From Acidobacteriota bacterium (GTDB taxonomy: Bacteria; Acidobacteriota; Terriglobia; Bryobacterales; Bryobacteraceae), in the NCBI GenBank assembly GCA_029776225.1, contig JAKOTR010000011.1:1-64000 (forward strand): a DNA stretch of 64,000 bases, written 5' to 3'. The notes beneath the pieces were generated by a model, which saw only the letters and a program-made list of their open reading frames with translations, was not told the DNA's origin and made no database searches. The stretch's first letter is position 1. The number at the start of each line of letters is the position of its first letter. The position numbers were made by a program, and so were the translations under genes. Positions 1 through 38,393 of this stretch are shown one piece after another.

Positions 1-8
1 TCGATGCT

Positions 9-266
9 TCATTTGACATCCTCATTAAATGCGATTGCCCATCGTTGCTCGTCCGCCCGCCAGCGCCGCCGCAGCTCCTGGCCCAGCGGGCCGACTCGCT
101 TTGTCCACCAGCCCTCGGACGGCGACCAGTACCGATACAGCCGTTCCATCGTTGCCGCGGAGTCAACGTGTCCGTCTGCACGCAGCGCCACCAGCCCCTG
201 ACCCACAAGCTTGGTTACGTACGGCTGGCTGATGTTCAGGTCTCGGGCCAGTTCGGTCTTCGTCAA
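9..266 (-). CDS. Small helix-turn-helix DNA-binding protein
   Basis: An 85-residue protein. Residues 3-40 read as a helix-turn-helix (TELARDLNISQPYVTKLVGQ), like the N-terminal domains of phage Nu1-type small terminase subunits, excisionases and MarR-like regulators. The C-terminal half is basic and rich in Trp and Arg. The start is TTG, with a strong GAGGAGGTGA ribosome site just upstream. Its TGA overlaps an ATG at base 12 that would start the next leftward gene, of which only four codons lie in the window. That coupling fits a small-terminase/large-terminase pair, but the next gene is not visible, so the role stays open between DNA-packaging recognition and regulation. Confidence 0.6.
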   Translation of the reverse strand: MTKTELARDLNISQPYVTKLVGQGLVALRADGHVDSAATMERLYRYWSPSEGWWTKRVGPLGQELRRRWRADEQRWAIAFNEDVK

Positions 267-370
267 TGCGTCACCTCCTCGTCAACTTCACTGAATTTTT
301 CGCCATGGCGGTAGCCGCAGCGTGCAATCAATCTACCCGCCGGCGCCGAGGCCCAGGAAGGACCCGACGC

Positions 371-670
371 TCATCGCCGCCCCCATTGCTTCGCCCCGGG
401 CGCGCCGGGCGCGCCAGGCGCGCCGTGCCTGACCGCCTCGCCGCCACCTGGCGTGGCCTCCGGCGTGGCGCCAGTCGTCCCGCCCACATTGGGGTGATGC
501 CCTGGCCGTGGCCGGCGGCCAGAGGCCACAACTTTCTCGAGCAGAGGCGGCAGGTCCTGGAGCGGGCCGAGGCGCTCGCCCGGGATACGATCGAGCAGCG
601 CCGCCAGCTCGCGGCAGAGATGCCACGCGCGGGCAACGTCGCTCGGTGGAGGCGGGTCAAATGGTCTCAT
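371..670 (-). CDS. Small hypothetical protein with a Gly-Ala-Pro tail
   Basis: A 99-residue protein I do not recognise. The N-terminal 55 residues look like an ordinary helical domain (HLCRELAALLDRIPGE). The C-terminal half is low complexity, rich in Gly, Pro and Thr, with a GAPGAPGAPGA run encoded by three copies of a 9-bp GC-only repeat (398-424). Its ATG overlaps the TGA of the upstream gene as ATGA, so the two are probably translationally coupled. Other frames here are also open because of the GC content. I prefer this one for its coupling and its plausible N-terminus. It is probably specific to this element. Confidence 0.5.
   Translation of the reverse strand: MRPFDPPPPSDVARAWHLCRELAALLDRIPGERLGPLQDLPPLLEKVVASGRRPRPGHHPNVGGTTGATPEATPGGGEAVRHGAPGAPGAPGAKQWGRR
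398..424. repeat. Three tandem copies of a 9-bp GC-only repeat
   Basis: GGGCGCGCC, GGGCGCGCC and AGGCGCGCC lie head to tail. Because the unit is a multiple of three, it encodes an in-frame Gly-Ala-Pro repeat in the leftward 99-residue protein. Copy number is likely to vary by slippage. Confidence 0.8.
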
Positions 671-1062
671 TCGGAATGGTTCCTTCCAGAAATTGCTTCT
701 TGGAGCCGCCTACGGAAATCGCGCCTGTCTACGAACAAGAAGCCGTTGGGGTTGCCATCGGAGCATGCGATGGGCACACCGACTCGGCGCGCCGCTTCGA
801 TCAGCGCCCCGTTGGATACGTATTGTCCTACGGCGCTTTCCACGCGATGCTTTGCCGAGTACGAATAGAGACCCGAAGTTTTCGTGACGCGAAGGCCTCG
901 CAGTATGTCGGCGCAGACCCTTACCTGATCCTCGTCTGGCGGCTCGCCGGCCGGTGCGCGCCAGACGAATCCAGACGCATCAATAGGAAGATCCTCCGGG
1001 GCCAGCCTCCAAGTGCTACGGCCGCCGAATATGCTGTACAGCGTCCAACTCTTTCGTGCCAT
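667..1062 (-). CDS. Hypothetical protein of the integrated element
   Basis: A 131-residue soluble protein with no signal peptide or membrane segment. The middle (YSAKHRVESAVGQYVSNGAL) has the flavour of a small helical domain seen in phage and plasmid hypothetical proteins. I cannot name a family. The start ATG follows an AAGGAGG ribosome site at ideal distance. It is the first gene left of the repeat array at 1119-1399, which would therefore contain its promoter or operator. It is translationally coupled to the 99-residue gene downstream. Given the position beside a helicase-primase gene and possible origin, a replication or regulatory accessory role is possible but unproven. Confidence 0.6.
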   Translation of the reverse strand: MARKSWTLYSIFGGRSTWRLAPEDLPIDASGFVWRAPAGEPPDEDQVRVCADILRGLRVTKTSGLYSYSAKHRVESAVGQYVSNGALIEAARRVGVPIACSDGNPNGFLFVDRRDFRRRLQEAISGRNHSE

Positions 1063-1119
1063 GGGCTATGCCTCCTTCCGTTTTGGAAGTGAAATCTCCA
1101 CAGCCAGGCCCCCGTAGGC

Positions 1120-1173
1120 CCCAGTCTGTTCCCAGTCTGTTCCCAGTCTGTTCCCAGTCTGTTCCCAGTCTCG
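1120..1173. repeat. Left repeat cluster, 11-bp period
   Basis: CCCAGTCTGTT occurs four times head to tail from 1120 to 1163, followed by a fifth partial copy ending near 1173. Two further TTCCCAG copies lie at about 1216 and 1225. The 11-bp period is close to one helical turn, so bound proteins would sit on one DNA face. Confidence 0.9.
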
Positions 1174-1315
1174 TTTTCTTGTAAGCAATTGATTCCACAA
1201 ATAGTTGTACGTTTGTTCCCAGTGTTCCCAGCCGATTCCTATTAAAGCCATATACGTATTCGTATACCCCTCTCCCCCCCATACACATTCCACACACGCG
1301 CGTGTGTGTGTTTTA

Positions 1316-1399
1316 CTGGGAACACTGGGAACAGCCATGAAAAGAAAAGACTTAAACTGGGAACATACTGGGAACAAAGACTGGGAACAACTGGGAACA
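1316..1399. repeat. Right repeat cluster, inverted relative to the left
   Basis: CTGGGAACA occurs at 1316, 1325, 1357, 1368, 1381 and 1391, the reverse complement of the core of the left cluster. Spacing is 9 to 32 bp, less regular than on the left. The last copy ends 7 bp before the stop codon of the leftward helicase-primase gene. Confidence 0.9.
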
Positions 1400-1405
1400 A
1401 AGCGA

Positions 1406-3625
1406 TCATTTCTGCCGGTACCTCCACTCCAAGCCTTCCCCGGTGCGAGCTCGATATCGTTCCCACTTCATTGCTCTGAGGCAGCGTGCCACACGATTCT
1501 TGTCGTGTTGCGTCCACAGTTCCGGCCGCTTTCCAATCGCGTGGGTCAAGATGTCGGCCACCGTGACCGATTCCCGATTGCTGGTCATTGGTAGGAAGCC
1601 GCCCCCGCCATCAGGCCGCGCGCACGGCGATGCGATCCACTGGCGGATGATCGGATCCCAGGGATCGCCCTCAAATCGGTCCTCCTGCTCTTCCGCCGCC
1701 GCCGCGTTCAGTTCGGGGCTATCCAGCCACCAGCGGTCTCCACGCTTGAACCGCACCACGGCCTCGGCCCAGAGTTGGTCACGGTCTCGCTTCAATTCCT
1801 CGATGTGGATCGCCCCACAGCGCACAGGCCAGAAGCGCCGCCCACCCGTCTCATCCTGAAGGTAGGCGTCCTGATTGGTGGTGGCAGCGAACACGCACTG
1901 CCGCGGAGATTCGATCAATCGCTTGCCGTAGGGTGGCCGGAAGCGGTCGGTAGAACGGCTGATGAAGGCTTTCACCTTGGCCAGATCGCTACGACGCATG
2001 GCATCCAACTCGGCCATCTCAATCAGCCACACGCCTCGGGTCTGTAGCGACGCGTCCTTGGTGCCAAGGTCCGAGATTTCGTCAGTGAACCAGGGCTCCG
2101 CCAGTGCGGCAAGCGCAGTGGATTTCAGGGCGCCTTGCTGCCCTTCCAGGATCAGGCAGTGGTCAGCCTTCACCCCCGGCTTGTAAATGCGCGCCACAGC
2201 GGAGATGAGCCATCGCGCGCCCACCGCGCGTGTGTATTCATTCGGTTCCACGCCCAGGTACAGCGTCAGCCAGTCGTCGATACGAGCGACGCCGTCCCAT
2301 GTAAGGCGCGCCAAGTAATCGCGGACGGGATGGAACCGTCGCTCCATCGCCACGGTCTGAGCGGCCTGCCCCGCCACATCCGGAGAGACGTAGATGCCTT
2401 GATGCTGAAGCCAGTCTGCCGTACGCCGGTCGTAATCGTCAGACCATACGCCGGGTCGGCCGCCAGCGAAAGGTGGTGGTTGGATGGCTTCCACCAGCTC
2501 GCTGAATTCATTGAAGGCCATGACTCCCTGCCAGTGCGGCGAGTGCCGCAACATAGTAATTGCGTTCGCCAGCAGGGGCTTGAGCGTCCCATCTTTGTTC
2601 AGGATCAGCGCAGTGCGCCAATCTGGAGCCGTATTGGCGCCTGAACGTTTGGTGCGCGGCCCCTCGACTTCGCGCTCAGGGGGCTTCGGCGGGCCCCCGC
2701 CGCTGTTGCCCTTCGCCTGTGGGCTGTAATGATCGCGAACGCCTGAGAGGGCCGCTTCGATCGTGGCCTGGCGGTAATCATCGCGCAGCCACTTCTCGCG
2801 CATCAGGCCGGACTGGCGGAACAGCCGGTCGATACGGCCGGCATCGCCGCCAGCCCAGAAGGCCAGCAGGTTGCACAGCGCGAGGTCGGCCTCAGACTGG
2901 CTGGAGTATTCGCCTTCCCATTGGCCTGCCCACAGACGGGCGAACTTTGCGCCGTCCTTGGCCTCAGACGCGCGCTGGATGAGTTCCTGGTCTCCAACGT
3001 CGGCCGCGGCCCCAGGAACGGCACTGGCGCCGTTCCTGCGCGCACTGTGGCCATTCCTTCGGCCATCTACGGAAATTCCGAAGATGCGGGCATGCAGGGC
3101 GGCCAGTTCAGCGGTCCGATCCTCGACGTCGCGGTCGTTCAAACGTTGGCCCGTGACGGTGAAGAACCGGCCTTCGGAGTACATCTCCACATGCCCTTTG
3201 CGCCGCCGCCCCGGAGGCAGTTCGCCGCGGCATAGGATGTGCACTCCCGTGCCGCTGGGGGAGACTTCTGTGTAGCTGTTCAGCTCATCGATGATCTCCT
3301 GCGCCCACTGCTGAAGCGCACCGCTCTCCGGGTCGCGCGCATGATCAAGATCGACTCCTACGATACCGTCTCCGAGCATGCATCCAATGCCGAGACTGGC
3401 GTACCGCCTCGAGGCGGCGAGGCAGACTTCAAAGCTGGTCCATGTAGATGGATCGTTCGACTTGGCAGGCTGCCCGTTTGGCTGAATCGGAACCTTTGTG
3501 GGCTTGCCGTTCCTGGTCTCGTAGCGCCAGCAGACCCAGCGAGGCTCCCGCAGCAGCTCTTCGGCCATGCGCTCGGCCAGCGGCTTGGGTGGTACAGGTC
3601 CACGCGCTGGAGATGCGGTCGTCAT
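1406..3625 (-). CDS. Primase-polymerase fused to VapE-type helicase
   Basis: A 739-residue replication protein. The N-terminal part (about 25-185) has archaeo-eukaryotic primase features: a DxD pair in VGVDLDHA (Asp92, Asp94), a following SGTGVHI His motif, and EMYSEGRFFTVTG. This matches the bifunctional primase/polymerase of phages and plasmids such as NrS-1. The C-terminal part (about 430-640) is a VapE/virulence-associated E ATPase with Walker A EGQQGALKST near 494 and Walker B VWLIEMAELD near 532. Such proteins prime and unwind element DNA. The start ATG overlaps the upstream TGA, and a GGAGGTG ribosome site lies inside the upstream gene. The opposed repeat array lies immediately 3' of it. 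Confidence 0.85.
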   Translation of the reverse strand: MTTASPARGPVPPKPLAERMAEELLREPRWVCWRYETRNGKPTKVPIQPNGQPAKSNDPSTWTSFEVCLAASRRYASLGIGCMLGDGIVGVDLDHARDPESGALQQWAQEIIDELNSYTEVSPSGTGVHILCRGELPPGRRRKGHVEMYSEGRFFTVTGQRLNDRDVEDRTAELAALHARIFGISVDGRRNGHSARRNGASAVPGAAADVGDQELIQRASEAKDGAKFARLWAGQWEGEYSSQSEADLALCNLLAFWAGGDAGRIDRLFRQSGLMREKWLRDDYRQATIEAALSGVRDHYSPQAKGNSGGGPPKPPEREVEGPRTKRSGANTAPDWRTALILNKDGTLKPLLANAITMLRHSPHWQGVMAFNEFSELVEAIQPPPFAGGRPGVWSDDYDRRTADWLQHQGIYVSPDVAGQAAQTVAMERRFHPVRDYLARLTWDGVARIDDWLTLYLGVEPNEYTRAVGARWLISAVARIYKPGVKADHCLILEGQQGALKSTALAALAEPWFTDEISDLGTKDASLQTRGVWLIEMAELDAMRRSDLAKVKAFISRSTDRFRPPYGKRLIESPRQCVFAATTNQDAYLQDETGGRRFWPVRCGAIHIEELKRDRDQLWAEAVVRFKRGDRWWLDSPELNAAAAEEQEDRFEGDPWDPIIRQWIASPCARPDGGGGFLPMTSNRESVTVADILTHAIGKRPELWTQHDKNRVARCLRAMKWERYRARTGEGLEWRYRQK

Positions 3626-3900
3626 TGCCGCACCTCCTGGGCAATGCGCACGAGAATGTCGCCCGCAGACGGTCGAAGCTGGATCAATCCACGCTTAGCG
3701 AGTGCCTCAATGCTCTTGAGGAGCAGGTTGCGGTTGGCAGGCAGGACGTTGAAACAGAGCGTCTTGAGCGTCACGCCCTGACGACGGGGAGGCGCCTGCA
3801 AGTAGTCCAGGACTACCTGTTCGGCTGCGGCTTCCAGAAAAGACCGTTGCGCGCGCTGATGATCATGGTGTACCGTAGGGGCGTCGGCCGCTACCGACAT
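3622..3900 (-). CDS. Small hypothetical protein upstream of the primase-helicase
   Basis: A 92-residue protein with no recognised family. Predicted helices and the segment KSIEALAKRGLIQLRPSAGD suggest a winged-helix fold, as in small element regulators or replication accessory proteins; this is inference. A GAGGTGG ribosome site lies just before the ATG. The end of the gene carries the ribosome site of the primase-helicase gene and overlaps it by ATGA, so the two are made together. It is the first gene of the leftward operon, whose leader contains the hairpin at 3919-3949. Confidence 0.6.
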   Translation of the reverse strand: MSVAADAPTVHHDHQRAQRSFLEAAAEQVVLDYLQAPPRRQGVTLKTLCFNVLPANRNLLLKSIEALAKRGLIQLRPSAGDILVRIAQEVRQ

Positions 3901-3918
3901 ATTTCCACCTCACAATCA

Positions 3919-3949
3919 AGCCCTGCCGGCCAGCAGGGCTTTTCTTTTG
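3919..3949 (+). terminator. Hairpin with T-tract
   Basis: AGCCCTGC and GCAGGGCT form a perfect 8-bp stem around a 6-base loop, followed on the + strand by TTTTCTTTT. The shape is that of an intrinsic terminator for rightward transcription. No rightward gene ends here. It sits in the 5' leader of the leftward operon, so it may insulate that operon or terminate an antisense or excisionase-region transcript. Confidence 0.55.
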
Positions 3950-4076
3950 CGAGGCGGTCAGGTTGTACGACAGTACGACATGCGGACGGGCTTGCCGATG
4001 GAACTGGTTGAAACTACATGGACCGAACAAGACTGGACTAGACCGGAAAGTACTTGAGAATCAAGTGAGTCACGAA
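3950..4076. promoter_or_regulatory. Short direct repeats beside the attachment site
   Basis: Non-coding DNA between the operon start and the tRNA fragment. It contains two head-to-tail GTACGACA copies (about 3964-3979) and a run of GAC-containing pentamers (GACCG, AACAA, GACTG, GACTA, GACCG, about 4020-4046). Short repeats next to a core site are what arm-type integrase or excisionase binding sites look like, but no protein is available here to test this. Confidence 0.3.
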
Positions 4077-4121
<45 letters not shown>

Positions 4122-4211
4122 TGAAATCAACAACCTACAAGCAACCCTGAAACGGCCTTCAATCAGCGCCTCTGCGGCCCGTTTCTCGAGACCGTATCGT
4201 GCGCGGTTGAT

Positions 4212-38260: not shown

Positions 38261-38393
38261 TGCAAACTCCAGCACCATAGCTTACCGCGATTCCAGCCCA
38301 AACACTACACGGGCCGGGCAAAAGCGCGGTTTACACTTGAAAACTCCAGCCGCAAACCAGAGGTGTTGCGTTTTTACACAACCAAAAGAGCCG

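Follow-up and report, generated by a model that had tools for sequence, protein, structure and literature searches.

A putative replication origin of the SaPI/PICI kind behind a PrimPol-VapE gene in an integrated element of Acidobacteriota, and a possible code for its iterons

What is the function of two opposed clusters of a short repeat that lie directly 3' of a primase-polymerase/VapE helicase gene in a member of the Bryobacteraceae (Acidobacteriota), and which protein reads them? The clusters are located in a 64,000-nucleotide stretch of DNA (contig JAKOTR010000011.1, assembly GCA_029776225.1; hereafter, the window). We consider it very probable that the array serves an integrated mobile element as its replication origin, with the adjacently encoded VapE protein acting as its own initiator. 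The support is comparative throughout and comes from the array itself, its conserved place and layout in relatives, an exchange of cassettes, the homology with PriRep1 of SaPI, and the joint variation of iteron bases with residues of the wing and the recognition helix. The initial annotation described the locus as a new iteron origin. An iteron-type origin with its own motif is still the best reading, but the layout is of the published SaPI/PICI kind rather than that of the classic iteron plasmids; the module has the sequence features of an origin of this known kind, in which the member and the motif are new. No description of this member, host group or motif was found in the open-access literature.

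The core TTCCCAG occurs in exact form six times on the plus strand (starts at 1129, 1140, 1151, 1162, 1216 and 1225), and its complement CTGGGAA also six times (1316, 1325, 1357, 1368, 1381 and 1391), which, with a degenerate iteron, GCCCCAGT, at ~1118, accounts for the 13 copies and the two opposed clusters reported initially. The set far from vapE consists of outer iterons at 1117-1169 (plus strand; one degenerate and four exact copies of TGTTCCCAGTC, with the exact 11-bp period already noticed) and an inner pair at 1214-1231 (plus strand; TGTTCCCAGTGTTCCCAG, 9 bp apart). On the vapE side, the inner pair occupies 1315-1333 (minus strand), again 9 bp apart, and is followed by four outer iterons at 1356-1399 (minus strand) with spacings of 11, 13 and 10. 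The innermost 18-bp arms (1214-1231 and 1316-1333) show 100% complementarity, with 84 nt between them. All 11 exact copies of TTCCCAGT in the window lie inside the array, with 1.4 expected and a maximum of 5 in 100 shuffles, and the doubled motif has no second copy anywhere in the 5.18-Mb assembly. The opposed 7-mer pair score is 12, six each way, and none of 500 dinucleotide shuffles of 1100-1410 scored above 0.

The centre between the two sets (1232-1314), presumed to be the melting or start region, is about 83-84 bp long, close to the 85 bp given at first, and harbors the alternating purine-pyrimidine palindrome CACACACGCGCGTGTGTGTG at 1291-1310, also present as described. An AT-rich stretch had been ascribed to the centre as well; this holds in that the centre is moderately AT-rich (GC 0.48 vs ~0.63 around it), but the most AT-rich stretch, 1170-1210 (GC 0.34), is within the first cluster. 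The array ends at 1399, 7 bp beyond the vapE stop codon at 1406, in agreement with the placement directly 3' of the gene. No DnaA box (TTWTNCACA) was detected in the array region; the single match in the window, at 38372, is attributable to chance. A coding repeat (WEQTGNRLGT peptides in the ORFs 1016-1297 and 1066-1377) was considered and rejected, because the frame does not survive spacings of 9, 10, 11 and 13 bp, and because the cores are variable in relatives.

The PrimPol-VapE initiator/helicase gene (1406-3625, minus strand) encodes a protein of 739 aa, the only VapE of this type found in the host genome, that combines a PrimPol domain (residues ~17-300), the NrS-1 helix-bundle domain (HBD; 243-302) and a VapE SF3 helicase domain (438-650). 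The protein ends in a winged-helix domain (residues ~689-738; 1412-1561, minus strand) that, on the strength of an AlphaFold model and of covariation, we propose to be the reader of the iterons. The model of the helicase half has a mean pLDDT of 71.7, with a poorly modeled central helicase part and values of 79-87 in the C-terminal domain; the predicted winged helix at its end comprises the helices 369-377 and 386-398 and a hairpin, 401-408/411-418, in the numbering of the model. The closest solved structure is 7pds, PriRep1 with dsDNA (phmmer 9e-50), and the top Foldseek matches are the six 7pds chains (1.5e-23), followed by the NrS-1 CTR (3.2e-3). The N-terminal half is a true relative of NrS-1 (6k9a, 1.6e-37, plus the HBD).

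Repeated initiator sites beside a melting region, with winged-helix readers, are typical of iteron plasmids such as RK2, pSC101 and R6K, in which direct-repeat iterons are usually located upstream of rep and are accompanied by Rep_3-type initiators and DnaA boxes; iteron arrays of plasmids have additional roles in copy number control and handcuffing. Unlike those of RK2 and pSC101, the iterons of the window are opposed, and neither DnaA boxes nor a Rep_3-type initiator were found. In the published SaPI/PICI origin, two opposed iteron sets flank an AT-rich centre just 3' of the initiator gene, and iteron recognition in these islands is assigned to the C-terminal domain of the helicase (PMC6092414; PMC7581432, citing Ubeda et al., 2007). 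The module in the window matches the pri-rep-ori modules of SaPI1, SaPIbov1, EfCIV583 and EcCICFT073 in the opposed sets (6 + 6 iterons), the lower-GC centre (83 bp here, ~80 bp there), the 3' placement and the homology of its VapE-type SF3 helicase to SaPI Rep, the protein solved in 7pds. It differs from them in its own iteron, the Acidobacteriota host, the fused NrS-1-type PrimPol, the presence of a capsid gene, and a gene order in which the rep module lies at the end opposite the integrase. With the polymerase of phage NrS-1 (6a9w, 6k9a; CTR, 6k9c), it shares the PrimPol-HBD-SF3 architecture and a clearly homologous N-terminal half, whereas its helicase half resembles PriRep1 more than the NrS-1 CTR; moreover, the recognition sites of NrS-1 are primer sites, not opposed iterons. 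Finally, Cch2 of SCCmec and Rep of SaPI5 (D5_N type) are self-loading helicases that bind repeats directly downstream of their own gene (PMC7581432); compared with these, the VapE of the window belongs to a different helicase family and has different repeats.

The mobile element that carries the array ends with a 45-bp attR-like copy of the 3' end of tRNA-Gly(CCC) (4077-4121, plus strand). The intact tRNA-Gly(CCC) gene is located at C17:3599-3673, adjoining a tyrosine integrase gene (L011 2313-3422), and the order from the tRNA to the end of contig C17 is tyrosine integrase, an HTH_17/AlpA-like protein (phrog_66 excisionase/regulator, E 1e-6), a MerR-like protein, and a capsid gene that is truncated where the contig stops. 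Base 1 of the window is the first base of contig C14, and the path of the element would therefore be C17:3599->1, a gap of unassembled length, and C14:1->4121. On the C14 side, the element additionally encodes a 92-aa protein of no known family upstream of vapE (3622-3900, minus strand), a 131-aa ORF that separates the array from the remainder of the element (667-1062, minus strand), and a terminase-small-subunit-like HTH protein (9-266, minus strand; phrog_57, E 3e-5). The last of these has a match in phage vB_Pae_U5 (L081), where the protein is annotated as the terminase small subunit.

Given the tyrosine integrase, the tRNA-Gly attachment site and the capsid gene, the element is probably a phage satellite or a small prophage; we read it as probably a satellite-sized phage relative with its own capsid gene, its middle lying in the contig gap, where additional replication genes may be encoded. 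No TerL (PF03354) was found in the host's own genome, so that the packaging genes could not be placed. The integrase, the attachment site and the AlpA-like regulator beside the integrase are all as in PICI, but the PICI order, int-regulator-pri-rep-ori at one end, is not, with the genes for the integrase, the HTH_17 protein and the capsid on C17 and the vapE-ori module on C14. We do not file the element as a PICI, because the gene order differs and helper dependence is an experimental criterion.

The initial annotation proposed to search for such arrays beside VapE genes of other elements, and held that homologues without the repeats would count against an origin. We collected 167 unique VapE helicase halves, each with at least 350 bp of downstream sequence; they came from two scans of viral sequences and one of genomes, from a search of genomes across the family, and from phages and plasmids selected by name. 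Opposed exact 7-mer arrays with a score of at least 4 are present within 480 bp 3' of the vapE stop in 87 of the 167 loci. Two control stretches of equal length, the 480 bp that follow and the final 480 bp of the gene, have them in 3 and 2 loci, respectively; at a score of at least 5, the counts are 80, 0 and 0. In a sliding scan that makes no assumption on placement, the best array is immediately 3' of the gene in ~83 loci; in 24 others it lies 0.5-3.5 kb further downstream, and in 3 it is upstream of the gene. Thus arrays of this kind do accompany VapE genes elsewhere and most homologues keep them, about a third having no strong array within the stretch read. Many relatives align over the helicase half only and yet have arrays, including one with a DUF3854 front half. 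A scan with L174 gave no match besides L174 itself, and a phylum-wide search with L036 yielded 3 further genomes only.

The cores of these arrays are variable (TGTTCCCAGT, GGTCCACGT, GGTGCACG, GTGTTCCAGT, GTGTCCCAGT, GTGTACCAGT, GGGTCCGGGT, TGTCCCACT, GGTCCCAACC, TGTCACCAAC and more) and the grammar is constant: 2-3 inner copies at 8-10 bp, with looser outer copies. The innermost spacing is 9 bp on 92 sides, the number of copies peaks at 6 on the vapE side (37 of 81) and at 5 on the other side, with a maximum of 7, and the centres have a median length of 86 bp and a GC of 0.48, vs 0.64 in the gene. Copies in the opposite orientation are not rare in the relatives (168 vs 789), in part because of near-palindromic cores. 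The word TAT[AG]GGAA, of which TTTAATAGGAATC on the gene strand of the window's centre is a near form, was counted in 14 of 76 centres, where 0.22 would be expected, and is found ~15 bp away from the far cluster; in these centres, for example, those of L013, L039 and L168, it could be a melting or start signal.

The same arrangement is found behind vapE in Marinobacter phage PS3, Corynebacterium phage IME1320_01, Bacteroides phage F2, Paenibacillus phage Bob and plasmid pKNA06 and, less clearly, in plasmid pGO128. A circular record of a Staphylococcus aureus pathogenicity island (L247) has this layout behind a vapE-type rep gene, with TGTCCC/GGGACA repeats that are weak by exact 7-mers and clear by eye. 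In pGO128 (L078; 4340 bp), VapE is the sole evident replication gene, and the GTGCTA/TAGCAC repeats behind it, with an exact 7-mer score of 0, are visible at k=6; this plasmid appears to be a convenient experimental model. In general, opposed arrays behind VapE genes offer a practical handle for predicting the origins of many unannotated phages and satellites and could be useful for building orthogonal replicons. In alphaproteobacterial relatives (L177, L178, L129, L149, L150, L194, L201 and others), the array is located 1.6-3.2 kb downstream of vapE, with genes apparently inserted in between, which makes the gap a possible cargo site.

A natural exchange separates the two halves of the gene. 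In another genus of the same family, L058 contains the same element (L058:10841-15335 corresponds to window 1-4122), with 97.9% identity over 2705-4122, including an identical 92-aa protein, and 96.4% over 1-410. Between these segments, the helicase half of vapE, the iteron array and the small ORF 667-1062 were swapped together as one cassette (674-2704 in the window), and the PrimPol half was kept. The replacement is a helicase half of the D5_N/P4 type, as in SCCmec Cch2 and SaPI5 Rep, with its own GTGACG/CGTCAC repeats 3' of the gene.

We propose that the winged-helix tail of VapE would bind the 10-11 bp iterons, and that the six sites of each set would place one helicase hexamer there, so that two hexamers face each other across the centre. 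These would then melt the ~85-bp centre and unwind outward, and the fused PrimPol half would prime synthesis.

Several other readings of the repeats have to be weighed against this one. Arrays of a single motif can be operators, and this array is located upstream of ORF 667-1062, so a repressor or activator other than VapE might use it to control the genes downstream of vapE. However, ORF 667-1062 has no homologue among the 379 fetched loci although the array architecture persists, no sigma-70-like promoter was found in 900-1700, and the iteron sequence tracks the winged helix of VapE itself. The joint exchange of helicase half and repeats in L058 also makes it hard to see the array as an operator for the downstream genes that were retained: it goes with the helicase, not with any gene downstream, contrary to what the initial annotation named as grounds for giving up the origin, namely, a repressor operator. 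We regard an operator as very unlikely. Even less likely, in our judgment, is that VapE binds the array as an incompatibility, copy-control or partition site, with synthesis starting elsewhere; such functions are familiar from the iteron arrays of plasmids, as mentioned above, but the conserved opposed geometry and the low-GC centre of ~85 bp match the SaPI/PICI origins, and in the E. coli PICI EcCICFT073, deletion of ori lowered colony numbers in a plasmid test (PMC6092414).

In the least likely of these readings, the PrimPol half would recognize the repeats as start sites and use them for priming, with no helicase binding. It draws on the relationship of the N-terminal half to NrS-1, whose PrimPol initiates at specific motifs, TTTGGTTA or GTG (PMC8718748), and on SCCmec, where a primase start site maps to an iteron (PMC7581432), so that the two uses can coexist. 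The repeats do not behave as a property of the PrimPol half, however: in L058, a near-identical PrimPol half is combined with different repeats, so these are unlikely to be its priming sites, and arrays are also found in the relatives that share only the helicase half. An origin read by the helicase tail thus remains our preferred interpretation, although the mild AT-richness of the centre, the lack of DnaA boxes, the relatives with no strong array in the stretch read and the copies in opposite orientation speak against it.

If the tail reads the iterons, the two should change together. Covariation was analyzed in 91 loci in which the array is clear, and which form 35 clusters when grouped at 80% core identity; the consensus calls were automatic, and the iteron register was set without the use of position 4. 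For iteron base 4, residue 725 in the wing (codon 1451-1453, minus-strand gene) ranks top among 419 columns, with a normalised mutual information of 0.44, the next column reaching 0.24. The best columns for base 8 are N710 and Q706 in the recognition helix (codons 1496-1498 and 1508-1510, respectively), and within the wing, R727 is best for base 1 and L732 for base 2. For bases 5-7, 9 and 10, most of the top columns lie elsewhere than in the winged helix, or they reflect a variant confined to a single clade, and these bases were left uninterpreted. That residues of wing and helix covary so strongly with iteron bases is suggestive of iteron recognition by the C-terminal domain of the initiator.

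The association persists in phylogenetically independent pairs, taken from a tree that was built on the helicase core and leaves out the winged helix (R and K pooled; numbers are modest): residue 725 differs in 12 of the 15 pairs whose base 4 is different, and in 0 of the 27 that share this base (Fisher p 4e-8), the next-best column giving 0.80 vs 0.41. Among the three exceptions, L103/L097 resembles a register shift and L215/L146 an orientation reading. Close relatives illustrate the pattern: L089 and L090, with 94% core identity, have TGTTCCAGT/N and CGTCCCAGT/R, respectively, and L019 and L227 have GGTGCAC/Y and GGTCCAC/K. In 119 loci, R/K goes with C in 78 of 84 cases, N with T in 8 of 8, Q with A in 15 of 21, and Y with G in 3 of 3. 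Thus, the joint change of repeats and helicase tail across more than 100 relatives suggests a simple recognition code.

The rule was written down before later loci were fetched. In its original form, which allowed both orientations, 25 predictions were right and 11 were wrong. The errors arose because Q-type iterons were read backwards (as GGTGACA instead of its reverse complement, TGTCACC) and because remote proteins had entered the set. With the forward orientation used in training and a filter for the family C-terminal signature, it was right for 23 of 23 R-type and 5 of 6 Q-type loci, and the 706/710 rule for 27 of 27; given that this count is an after-the-fact correction and that the new loci are close relatives of the R- and Q-type training loci, we consider it supportive, short of decisive. 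The test was dominated by R-type proteins and covered the R, Q and 706/710 rules; N-, H- and Y-type loci are few in the sample. Weak arrays 2.5-3 kb downstream of vapE in L204, L213, L214 and L165 fall outside the code and may belong to another system.

Taken together, these data make it reasonably likely, in our view, that the origin specificity of VapE-type initiators is set by a compact, near-modular code in which residue 725 selects base 4 (R/K->C, N->T, Q->A, Y->G) and residues 706/710 select base 8 (Q..N->G, K..M->C, R..M->A). Incompatible replicons of phages, satellites and plasmids would then diversify through point changes with matching iterons, or through swaps of helicase and origin cassettes. 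The swap and the covariation make initiator-origin specificity directly testable, with single-residue mutants predicted to go with matching one-base changes of the iterons.

A complete relative shows what an intact element of this type might look like. L390:5408-15234 is an element of ~9.8 kb, bounded by tRNA-Ala and a 24-bp repeat, that encodes an integrase, a capsid-protease fusion, a TerS-like protein and a VapE with its own TGTACCG array; ten ORFs that were scanned gave no match to tail, portal or large-terminase families. It looks like a capsid-encoding satellite in Acidobacteriota. The host of the window element has four homologous capsid genes (L011:1-1026, G000:C18:38596-39579, C30:28271-29254 and C67:26017-26724), the three others showing 52-53% identity to the one on C17, and may therefore carry several related elements. 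The element in L390 also includes, at L390:10624-11100, a gene with a retroviral-type aspartyl protease domain (PF13650).
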